Source: Halostagnicola larsenii XH-48
GTDB taxonomy: Archaea > Halobacteriota > Halobacteria > Halobacteriales > Natrialbaceae
DNA length: 64,000 bases
NCBI RefSeq assembly: GCF_000517625.1
Contig: NZ_CP007055.1
Span: 62,001-126,000 of the forward strand
Reading direction: 5' to 3'
Position numbers and translations under genes: made by a program. Below are positions 5,273-50,519 of this stretch, piece by piece. Within the stretch, counting starts at the first letter, position 1. Each line of letters begins with the position of its first letter. The notes under the pieces were generated by a model. That model was not told where the DNA came from and made no database searches. It saw nothing but the letters and a program-made list of their open reading frames with translations.

Positions 5273-5431
5273 ATGGAATCCTCCCCGCCAACTATCTGTC
5301 CCCGTTGTGGCGAACGGGAGACGTACTCAGCCCGACATACGACACCGGGATGGCGAATACAGTTCTATGAGTGTGATAATTGCGGTCGAAGATATAACCC
5401 GTATCTTGACGAAGAATACAGTATAGACTAA
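5273..5431 (+). CDS. Small zinc-ribbon protein
   Basis: This 52-residue protein has two knuckles, TICPRCGERE and YECDNCGRRYNPY, 22 residues apart, which should bind one zinc as a zinc ribbon. The spacing is like that of small RNA/DNA-binding ribbons of the TFIIS/RPB9 type, but no other domain is present. A TATA-like ACTTATCA at 5241-5248 sits 32 bases before this ATG, which supports a leaderless start here rather than at the upstream in-frame codon. It lies in the A+T-richer island. Confidence 0.7.
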   Translation: MESSPPTICPRCGERETYSARHTTPGWRIQFYECDNCGRRYNPYLDEEYSID

Positions 5432-5539: not shown

Positions 5540-5695
5540 TCAGAGATCGGGCGAGCCGACCTGACACCCACACGGCGAGCAGATGTGCTCTGTCGGCCCG
5601 CGGCTCGTAACCAGCGCAACCGGCGTGTCACACCGCGGACAGCGTGGCAGCGACGACGCTTCGCGCTCGTCTTCAGTTGGTGACTGGTCGCTCAT
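5540..5695 (-). CDS. Zinc-ribbon microprotein of PCGC type, divergent from RNA A
   Basis: This 51-residue protein has an acidic N-terminal tail and then a compact ribbon: C19-P-x-C22, H37, C39 and PC42-G-C44-x-V. A purine-rich GAGGGG lies about 4-9 bases before the ATG. The ribbon aligns without gaps to the C-terminal ribbon of the protein at 49934-50272 (C79, C82, H97, C102, C104), with 14 identities over about 30 positions. Both genes sit divergently next to a copy of the same RNA family. I recognise it as a haloarchaeal zinc-finger microprotein type. Its function is unknown; RNA binding is possible but unproven. Confidence 0.75.
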   Translation of the reverse strand: MSDQSPTEDEREASSLPRCPRCDTPVALVTSRGPTEHICSPCGCQVGSPDL

Positions 5696-5762
5696 CGGCC
5701 CCTCGAGTGCAGCTTTCGGGGAGCGCCGGCTAGTTGATAGCGGTACGGCTGTCGTGCGAGAC

Positions 5763-5770
5763 GTTTATAT
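5763..5770 (+). promoter_or_regulatory. TATA box of RNA A
   Basis: GTTTATAT begins 28 bases before the CATGG that opens the RNA. The same spacing is found for RNA B, so the initiation site is probably at or next to CATGG in both. Confidence 0.65.
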
Positions 5771-5790
5771 CTCGGTAGAATCAACGCAAA

Positions 5791-5895
5791 CATGGTTTCG
5801 AACCCTCGCGGGTTAGAAACCGCGCCTCGGGTGGTGCATCACCCGGGGCATTTCAGCGCATGCCCCTGGCGGCTGATTGAAGCGCGGTTTCTGTC
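5791..5895 (+). ncRNA. Structured RNA A (unrecognised family, two copies in the window)
   Basis: Three hairpins can be drawn. Hairpin 1 is AACCC 5801-5805 with GGGTT 5810-5814. Hairpin 2 is CGGGTG 5828-5833 with CACCCG 5840-5845. Hairpin 3 is GGGCAT 5846-5851 with ATGCCC 5860-5865. A perfect 10-bp outer stem, GAAACCGCGC (5816-5825) with GCGCGGTTTC (5882-5891), encloses hairpins 2 and 3. An alternative stem pairs GGTTTC 5794-5799 with GAAACC 5816-5821, excluding the outer stem. A T-rich tail follows from 5891. No gene follows on this strand. A 45-codon ORF from 5792 also crosses it. RNA B at 50374 shares the architecture. Confidence 0.6.
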
Positions 5896-6098
5896 TTGTT
5901 TGTTGTCGGGTAGTCACTTATACTATTGAGATTTGTGGCTGGCAGAACCGTAGCGGGTCACTCTTTTCGTGTGATGACTGACTGGAACCTCGAAGTTCTG
6001 CTGCAATTGTCCGGCGCAATCGTTGCCAGCATACACTCTCCAATTTCAGCGACAGCACGTGTCGAAATTTCTTCAAACTGGACTCCTCGAGAGCATGC

Positions 6099-26406: not shown

Positions 26407-26461
26407 GTAGGTGTTCGCAACACAGCAAGCTGGTTGCTCACGAGTTTGAATTGTGAGAAAG

Positions 26462-26534
26462 CGCCCGAGGCGGGATTTGAACCCGCGTCACAACCGTGAC
26501 AGGGTTGTATGATGGGCCACTACACCACCCGGGC
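26462..26534 (-). tRNA. tRNA-Asp (anticodon GTC), copy 1
   Basis: This 73-nt gene has a 7-bp acceptor stem (GCCCGGG with CTCGGGC), anticodon stem CAACC/GGTTG with loop CTGTCAC giving anticodon GTC, and a T loop TTCAAAT. The discriminator is G and CCA is not encoded. It is identical to copy 2 over its whole length, plus ten bases of upstream flank. Confidence 0.97.
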
Positions 26535-26880: not shown

Positions 26881-26946
26881 GTTTTCCGCCGTTCAGTCTT
26901 CGCTCGTCGCAACCGCTCCTCGCTCAGAAATTGAACGGCGGAAAAC
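26881..26946. repeat. 15-bp inverted repeat abutting tRNA-Asp copy 2
   Basis: GTTTTCCGCCGTTCA (26881-26895) is the exact reverse complement of 26932-26946. The second arm ends on the tRNA discriminator base. It may end the tRNA transcript or belong to the palindromic element. Confidence 0.55.
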
Positions 26947-27018
26947 GCCCGAGGCGGGATTTGAACCCGCGTCACAACCGTGACAGGGTTGTATGATGGG
27001 CCACTACACCACCCGGGC
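26946..27018 (-). tRNA. tRNA-Asp (anticodon GTC), copy 2
   Basis: This 73-nt gene is identical in sequence to copy 1, with anticodon GTC in loop CTGTCAC. The upstream flank (ACCCTGCATC on the plus strand) is also shared, while further flanks differ, so the duplication is recent and compact. Confidence 0.97.
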
Positions 27019-27240
27019 ACCCTGCATCCATCCATTTCGTGGTGGCACTCTTAAGGATTCTCACTCGAGCGTCGTGTGGTACTTCTCACCGGGGAAAGCT
27101 CTCGCCGGCTAAACATAACTCGTGTATTACACTTCCCATAAGGGATTTAACTGATAACGGGGTATTTTACAATGTGAACGGATGCTCCGGTCAGGTTGGG
27201 CCGGCCGGATAGCGCTACGCTTGCGTCCGACTTAGAAACG

Positions 27241-49933: not shown

Positions 49934-50272
49934 CTACTCGAGCAGATCACCACTAACCCGACACCCACAGGGGTACGCATTGTGACACTCTGGAACGAGT
50001 TGGACGACCGCGCTAACCGGGAGTTCACAGTGGGGACACTCGGGGCGGGCTGGCGGGTCTTCGTCGGTCACCCACACGCCCTGTTTCGTCACGACGAGCG
50101 AGACGTCGTGGATCTCGAGGCGAACCTCGACCGCGTCGCCGCCCGTCTCGAGTAGCCGGGCGAGCGCCTCAGGATCGAACTCCCTGCCGAGCTGGTAGGA
50201 CTCTCGAGGGATGCCCTCCTTCTCGAGGGTGCGGACGATGTCCACGACCAGACTATCGGTCGTTGCTGTCAT
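49934..50272 (-). CDS. HalOD1-like domain protein with C-terminal PCGC zinc ribbon
   Basis: This 112-residue protein has two parts. Residues 1-70 resemble the haloarchaeal HalOD1 output domain (FDPEALARLLETGGDAVEV, VSLVVTKQGVWV). Residues 76-107 form a zinc ribbon with C79, C82, H97, C102 and C104, ending PCGCRVSGDL. The ribbon aligns without gaps to the microprotein at 5540-5695. RNA B starts divergently 101 bases away. The pairing of this ribbon with this RNA occurs twice in the window. HalOD1 domains occur in signalling proteins; the role here is unknown. Confidence 0.7.
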   Translation of the reverse strand: MTATTDSLVVDIVRTLEKEGIPRESYQLGREFDPEALARLLETGGDAVEVRLEIHDVSLVVTKQGVWVTDEDPPARPECPHCELPVSAVVQLVPECHNAYPCGCRVSGDLLE

Positions 50273-50344
50273 GGTCTGTGGGCACCCTCGAGTGCGTTTA
50301 TCGTAGCTGTCGATCGTTGCGTTCGATTCGTCTGTCGGACGGGA

Positions 50345-50352
50345 TGTTTAAG
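50345..50352 (+). promoter_or_regulatory. TATA box of RNA B
   Basis: TGTTTAAG; its TTTA begins 27 bases before the CATGG at the RNA start, the same distance as in RNA A (5764 to 5791). Confidence 0.6.
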
Positions 50353-50373
50353 CCCGCGGAGAAGATATCCAAT

Positions 50374-50480
50374 CATGGCAACCGATCCTCTAAGGGGTTG
50401 GAAGCCACGTCTCGGGTGTCACTACCACCCGGGGCATTTCAATACGAGTGCCCCCTCCGTGGAGTTTTGGCTTCCATTTG
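50374..50480 (+). ncRNA. Structured RNA B (second copy of the unrecognised family)
   Basis: The layout matches RNA A. Hairpin 1 is AACC 50380-50383 with GGTT 50396-50399, with an inner CC/GG. Hairpin 2 is CGGGTG 50413-50418 with CACCCG 50426-50431. Hairpin 3 is GGGCA 50432-50436 with TGCCC 50449-50453. The outer stem is GGAAGCCA (50400-50407) with TGGCTTCC (50468-50475): different bases from A, pairing kept. TGGC 50376-50379 can instead pair with GCCA 50404-50407. GGGGCATTTCA is shared with A. A 43-codon ORF from 50375 also runs through it. No gene follows closely on this strand. Confidence 0.6.
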
Positions 50481-50519
50481 GTATCACGTTCTGTAGTGTC
50501 ATATAACTACTGTTTCTGG

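Follow-up and report, generated by a model that had tools for sequence, protein, structure and literature searches.

Results

Two related elements in the window

The window, by which we mean the whole stretch of 64,000 nucleotides of Halostagnicola larsenii XH-48 that was analysed, contains two copies, A and B, of an element of about 103 nt that would specify a structured RNA on the plus strand. Each lies opposite the start of a small-protein operon on the minus strand. Within the element a middle strand can pair either with a 5′ strand (helix P1) or with a 3′ strand (helix P2), and a further hairpin is designated P3. The parts of copy A are the following.

5540–5695, minus strand: 51-aa zinc-ribbon protein (CPRC..CSPCGC)
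5692–5793, minus strand: 33-aa leader ORF, with its start at a conserved CATG and its end overlapping the following ORF by ATGA
5764–5769, plus strand: TATA box TTTATA (A/T fraction of 0.87–1.0 at −24 to −28 across 149 copies)
5792, plus strand: predicted 5′ end of the RNA at ATGG, placed from the TATA spacing
5792–5894, plus strand: putative RNA of about 103 nt, A subtype, recognised by homology to 13 other genomic copies and by a covariance model match
5793–5799, plus strand: P1, 5′ competitor strand (GGTTTC at 5794–5799)
5815–5824, plus strand: middle strand AGAAACCGCG (GAAACC at 5816–5821), with partners at 5793–5799 (P1) or 5883–5892 (P2)
5824–5849, plus strand: P3 hairpin GCCTCGGGTG / CACCCGGGGC, with the hypervariable loop GTGCAT at 5834–5839
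5883–5892, plus strand: P2, 3′ competitor strand CGCGGTTTCT (GGTTTC at 5886–5891)
5916–5928, minus strand: putative opposite promoter CAATAGTATAAGT, with a predicted start at the 3′ end of the element and reading through it

Near copy A there is also a 52-aa zinc-ribbon ORF, CPRCGERETYSARHTTPGWRIQFYECDNCGRRY, at 5273–5431 on the plus strand, a close relative of which is encoded at a locus in another genus (L026), at a distance of 490 nt from the start of the RNA. Copy B is built in the same manner.

49934–50272, minus strand: 112-aa HalOD1-like and zinc-ribbon protein
50269–50376, minus strand: 35-aa leader ORF, starting from the conserved CATG and overlapping the zinc gene by ATGA
50347–50352, plus strand: TATA box TTTAAG
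50375–50477, plus strand: putative RNA of about 103 nt, B subtype, recognised by homology to other genomic copies and by a covariance model match
50376–50379, plus strand: P1, 5′ competitor TGGC
50400–50407, plus strand: middle strand GGAAGCCA (GCCA at 50404–50407)
50409–50435, plus strand: P3 hairpin GTCTCGGGTG / CACCCGGGGC, with loop TCACTAC at 50419–50425
50468–50475, plus strand: P2, 3′ competitor TGGCTTCC (TGGC at 50468–50471)
50500–50513, minus strand: putative opposite promoter CAGTAGTTATATG

Elsewhere the window carries two tRNA-Asp(GTC) genes on the minus strand (26461–26534 and 26945–27019), about 480 bp apart and with an equal covariance score of 60.1 bits.

A many-copy family

The two elements appear to be members of a many-copy haloarchaeal family of RNAs of about 100 nt, apparently undescribed. 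The host genome has 14 exact occurrences of the 14-mer CCCGGGGCATTTCA, always on the main chromosome and never on the other four contigs, and all of these sites fall within the same element of about 103 nt with a conserved promoter upstream. A covariance model of the family was built from these 14 host copies, and the alignment-based counts given below lean on it. Of 392 order genomes searched with this model, 92 were found to carry family members, the genera in named records being Natrinema, Natrialba, Halovivax, Halopiger, Halostagnicola, Haladaptatus and Halocatena, among others. Copy numbers often reach at least 10 in Natrialbaceae, with a maximum of about 32 in one Halocatena relative. 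A GCATTTC segment is conserved in the RNA, and on plasmid records no annotation lies beneath the family matches. The homologue sets used here comprise 149 RNAs, or 140 distinct ones for per-pair counts, and are made of related, not independent, sequences.

Rfam 15 gave no match at gathering score over the element in the window and none at E ≤ 1 over four loci, and the pertinent parts of three open-access papers on haloarchaeal and archaeal RNA (PMC8155600, PMC7002113 and PMC2864571) describe no such family. Nothing similar to the element was present in the phage collection; the sole IMG/VR match was a chance match inside coding sequence, and a viral copy was consequently rejected.

Both competing helices are conserved

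The initial annotation described copies A and B as having a central word that can pair with identical words on its 5′ and 3′ sides, and all of the words it named are at the positions it gave. The 3′ pairing is real in both copies, but it is longer than had been described, AGAAACCGCG pairing with CGCGGTTTCT in A and GGAAGCCA with TGGCTTCC in B. The sameness of the two competitors, in turn, holds for A and B but does not extend to the family, where an exact word of at least 6 nt is common to both sides in only 20 of 149 homologues. The conserved trait, judged from these alignments, is the pairing to the middle strand and not the identity of the 5′ and 3′ competitors.

Among the 140 distinct homologues, P1 pairs 1 to 4 are canonical in 139, 140, 140 and 137, respectively, and pair 4 varies between CG, TA, GC and TG, while P2 is canonical in 80–100% of them at each pair. 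The best conserved positions are P1 pairs 1–4 and P2 pairs 5–7. When words were re-paired by permutation across 11 word clusters of related homologues, the duplexes of each middle word with its own 5′ word and with its own 3′ word were better than all 20,000 re-pairings. Furthermore, on the model alignment, 8 of 8 P2 pairs and 7 of 10 P3 pairs show double-sided changes, a result equalled in none of 500 shuffles. The count for P1 on alignment A4 is weaker (85% canonical, against 81% in shuffled data), because the Halocatena sequences are shifted by one column in it. Where the 3′ word is mismatched in Halocatena and Haladaptatus, the middle word still fits the 5′ word, and P1 is therefore not a by-product of the 5′/3′ identity. 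The initial annotation had proposed, as evidence against a switch, that homologues might retain one pairing only; both helices are kept, and their words covary between lineages, in Natrialbaceae, Halocatena, Haladaptatus and singletons, so that the proposal withstands this comparison.

The folded strand

Several observations indicate which strand is the folded RNA. P3 consists of CGGGUG/CACCCG plus a 5-bp extension whose pairs vary between TG, CG, TA, GC, AT and GT and are canonical in virtually all of the 149 RNAs. Read on the plus strand, this extension contains hundreds of G-U pairs and no A-C pair, which marks the plus strand as the one that folds. A symmetrically scored count, restricted to the inner part of P1 (registers being mixed in outer P1 and in P2, which were left out), gave 120 G-U against 39 A-C variants on the plus strand, and in every lineage group the plus strand gives a more stable 5′ hairpin than the minus strand. 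The variant pairs of P2, on the other hand, lean to A-C over G-U on the plus strand, so that P2 could act partly, or also, in a minus-strand RNA. A structure residing wholly on the minus strand was rejected for P3 and P1 in view of the G-U variants on the plus strand; for P2 the evidence is conflicting.

A coding function of the plus strand was considered since several copies can encode an 'HPGHF' peptide. It was rejected because the frame is not kept, the distance from ATG to the 3′ strand of P3 being distributed modulo 3 as 53/55/41. This distribution, over the 149 copies, also speaks against a leaderless small protein-coding mRNA on the plus strand.

Predicted folding

The whole of copy A has a predicted folding energy of −49.4 kcal/mol (z −3.15 relative to shuffles) and that of copy B one of −41.6 (z −2.31), and their isolated 5′ halves form the alternative hairpin with z values of −2.4 and −3.4, respectively. 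In the nascent chain the mean predicted probability of P1 is 0.89; at full length the means over the 149 RNAs are 0.46 for P1 and 0.47 for P2, the individual P1/P2 values being 0.04/0.96 for copy A and 0.40/0.56 for copy B. The strand-exchange switch put forward in the initial annotation is thus partly supported, in that both mutually exclusive helices are conserved, with P1 predicted to form early and the family mean to be close to 50:50 late. Copy A fits it less well, being strongly in favour of P2 (96% predicted) and by this model would by itself be hardly bistable.

Predicted promoters and the opposite operon

A/T-rich boxes flank the element at mirror positions, each 24–28 nt beyond its end, in all lineages among the 149 copies. 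The downstream box has an A/T fraction of 0.91–0.99 at about +24 to +28 beyond the 3′ end, and is predicted to act as a haloarchaeal promoter for the minus strand. The plus-strand 'TATA' region of Haladaptatus and Halocatena overlaps with coding sequence, and as a TATA box it is poor. The plus TATA box lies within a covarying palindrome (CGAGA-N8-TCTCG at 5757–5774 in copy A, 50341–50356 in copy B) whose arms co-vary between copies (GGGA/TCCC, GAGA/TCTC), and this is possibly the operator of a dimeric regulator. That the palindrome acts as an RNA hairpin was not retained, the evidence on strand being mixed.

On the opposite strand an ORF begins exactly at the CATG of the 5′ end of the plus RNA. 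Taken at any length, this leader ORF usually has an RTGA stop/start overlap with the next ORF (88/106 in Natrialbaceae, 17/19 in Halocatena). The leader peptides are mostly basic and 28–79 aa long, and their operon partners are zinc-motif proteins belonging to several unrelated families. In Haladaptatus the ORF started at CATG is usually itself a SWIM-type zinc protein; at three loci there (L062, L076 and L170) the SWIM gene adjoining the RNA is internally deleted or truncated and the RNA is retained. The 45–48-aa ORFs of Halocatena have an excess at third codon positions, as expected under codon-phase constraint; this signal is absent from the first 48 nt of the Natrialbaceae leader ORF.

ORFs with a zinc motif were found on the opposite strand at 94 of 108 loci in Natrialbaceae, 16 of 20 in Halocatena and 10 of 13 loci in the third set, against 6, 2 and 0 on the plus side. 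Since no other gene is consistently present downstream on the plus strand in the host copies either, a riboswitch acting in cis on that strand is not supported, and nothing in the data points to a ligand. Outside Natrialbaceae a co-directional helix-turn-helix protein often begins 50–180 nt past the RNA (L054, L058, L059, L063 and Haladaptatus). These proteins are of the ADWMxPxDExILE type, or winged-helix proteins followed by PIN-like ORFs, and the element looks as if placed between divergent operons.

The promoter-like boxes are opposed, and the overlap includes the start codon at CATG. The plus RNA is accordingly predicted to be a stand-alone transcript that is antisense to the 5′ UTR of the opposite small-protein operon, its start codon included.

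The P3 loop is hypervariable

The loop of P3 has 6–7 nt, nearly half of the loops having 6, and its hypervariability is the most striking feature of the RNA. Within a genome all loops are distinct in most cases (28/28, 21/21, 18/18, 14/14 in the host, 10/10 and 9/9), the exceptions being one genome with 3 distinct loops in 4 copies and one Haladaptatus with 4 in 7. The space of possible loops is large, and the absence of repeats is therefore in itself no proof of diversifying selection. The stronger argument is the contrast between the variable loop and the near-identical remainder: in syntenic copies whose remainder is 93–98% identical, the loops are often barely more alike than random pairs. 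YUNR occurs in 46% of loops, compared with 27% in shuffles, and among the 7-nt loops position 2 is a pyrimidine in 97% and position 6 is A in 74%. The composition of these 7-nt loops (CUNNNAN, anticodon-like) is reminiscent of anticodon or U-turn loops, but the large share of 6-nt loops led us to set an anticodon-like reading aside. Pairing of the loop with a sequence elsewhere in its own locus was considered and rejected, own loops doing no better than swapped ones.

Discussion

With its two conserved folds, its copy-specific loop and its place across from the beginning of a small protein gene, usually a zinc-binding one, the RNA is probably a private antisense switch for that gene. We give an even chance to the proposal that the family is a multi-copy, copy-specific cis-antisense RNA switch controlling the opposite small-protein operon. 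Its starting points are both helices, both promoter-like boxes, the plus-strand bias of P3 and of the 5′ hairpin, the hypervariable loop and the coupled operon on the other strand. In this proposal an element of about 105 bp would lie between two inward-facing promoters. The plus promoter would give the structured RNA, made of the P3 hairpin with its 6–7-nt loop and a three-strand exchange unit, and the minus promoter would give an mRNA of the leader ORF and, usually coupled to it through ATGA, the zinc protein. The whole 5′ UTR and the start codon of this mRNA would be complementary to the plus RNA. Early on, the 5′ end would pair with the middle strand in P1; once the 3′ end is made or the target is met, the 3′ strand may displace P1 by forming P2, which would free a 5′ strand complementary to the start-codon region of the mRNA. 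The variable loop of P3 would initiate contact, and with no mRNA but the cognate one; in this way each copy would control its own operon. The proposal presupposes that both transcripts are made, that the loop is the recognition site and that the helices do exchange, the presumed outcome being repression.

An RNA that acts in trans, or as part of a ribonucleoprotein, was also considered: a stand-alone plus RNA would be bound by the adjoining zinc protein, and its loop would target other mRNAs or hold a protein. This is unlikely in our view, even though the RNA has its own promoter-like box, a conserved structure and the conserved GCATTTC, and zinc-finger proteins of several unrelated families adjoin it. 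It does not account for the complete overlap with the 5′ UTR on the other strand or for the exact sharing of CATG with the start codon, the zinc partners are mutually unrelated while the RNA is conserved, and the loops diverge even in syntenic copies with a near-identical remainder.

Alternatively, the minus-strand 5′ UTR could itself be a translational switch in cis, its middle strand pairing either with the 5′ end of the mRNA (P2, leaving the start codon free) or with the strand adjacent to the start (P1, AUG hidden). The geometry is exact for hiding the AUG, the opposite promoter and a start codon at the end of the element are conserved in all lineages, and in most copies the minus strand gives the better fold of P2 and P3P4. 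The P3 extension, however, is canonical on the plus strand and many of its pairs would become A-C on the minus strand, and the greater stability of the 5′ hairpin on the plus strand in all lineage groups likewise makes this reading improbable. No higher a rank can be given to a static pseudoknot, in which nothing is exchanged and the middle word is shared, its 3′ half being paired to the 5′ UGG and its 5′ half to the 3′ CUUCC. The best conserved pairs, P1 1–4 and P2 5–7, do correspond to complementary halves of the middle word; yet P1 pair 7 (canonical in 119/140) and P2 pairs 1–4 (112–124/140) are well above chance, and a pseudoknot would not need them.

Finally, a selfish or mobile DNA unit of protein gene and hairpin DNA dispersed over the chromosome, with incidental RNA structure, seems very improbable as the full explanation: the copies are dispersed, similarity is confined to a unit of about 415–620 bp, some Haladaptatus copies are degenerate and three congeners lack the copy A unit at the syntenic site, but a non-systematic look revealed neither a transposase nor terminal repeats or target duplications, two congeners have about half of the copies in synteny, and the strand-specific covariation favours selection on RNA. 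The absence of copy A from those sites does show that units are gained or lost, and mobility is compatible with the antisense switch as the origin of the element.

If the antisense switch is correct, it would represent a large undescribed family of archaeal antisense RNAs with a built-in strand-exchange switch. The natural sets of up to about 28 distinct loops per cell would be ready orthogonal RNA regulators, and the family would help in understanding haloarchaeal zinc microproteins, whose functions are poorly known. That RNAs which are otherwise near-identical should have one 7-nt loop almost wholly replaced is unusual in itself. A more far-reaching form of the proposal, which we regard as rather unlikely, is an orthogonal, self-addressing control in haloarchaea. 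Dozens of paralogous operons per genome would each be silenced by their own bistable antisense RNA, with an address loop replaced far faster than the rest, perhaps by active diversification, and these units would possibly be the first archaeal modules resembling type I toxin-antitoxin systems.

The element shares with riboswitches and attenuators one strand contested by 5′ and 3′ partners, a co-transcriptional order and mutually exclusive conserved helices, but it has no downstream gene controlled in cis on the plus strand, no known ligand pocket and no Rfam match. Among haloarchaeal RNAs, s479 of Haloferax volcanii is linked to zinc physiology (PMC8155600); it is crRNA-like, has a CRISPR locus on one side of its gene and cas genes on the other, and acts on znuC1 mRNA. 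The dispersal of the element copies over the chromosome argues against membership of that type. A haloarchaeal counter-transcript acting on an overlapping transcript is the antisense RNA of halovirus PhiH1 (Stolt and Zillig 1993, as cited in PMC6210493). It is a single viral locus, whereas the present element is multi-copy and without a similar sequence in the phage collection.

Bacterial type I toxin-antitoxin systems such as Ibs/Sib combine a small ORF with a cis-encoded antisense RNA, and occur as multiple chromosomal copies with copy-specific recognition segments. In contrast to Ibs/Sib, the haloarchaeal partner proteins are mostly zinc-finger proteins and not hydrophobic toxins. A 2025 paper (PMC12390103) states that all type I systems known to date come from three bacterial phyla.

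The antisense RNAs of plasmid copy control (ColE1 RNAI/RNAII and the IncI-type Inc RNA) are similar in being complementary to a leader. In these RNAs the hairpin loop is the specificity determinant, and U-turn YUNR loops are found. Changes in the loop give orthogonal variants. Examples are the reported directed evolution of ColE1 compatibility (PMC9458437) and IncK1/IncK2 (PMC10724649). Unlike those systems, the haloarchaeal element is archaeal and chromosomal, has many paralogues per genome and is tied to no replicon; it also adds a conserved three-strand exchange, and its predicted target is a small-protein operon.
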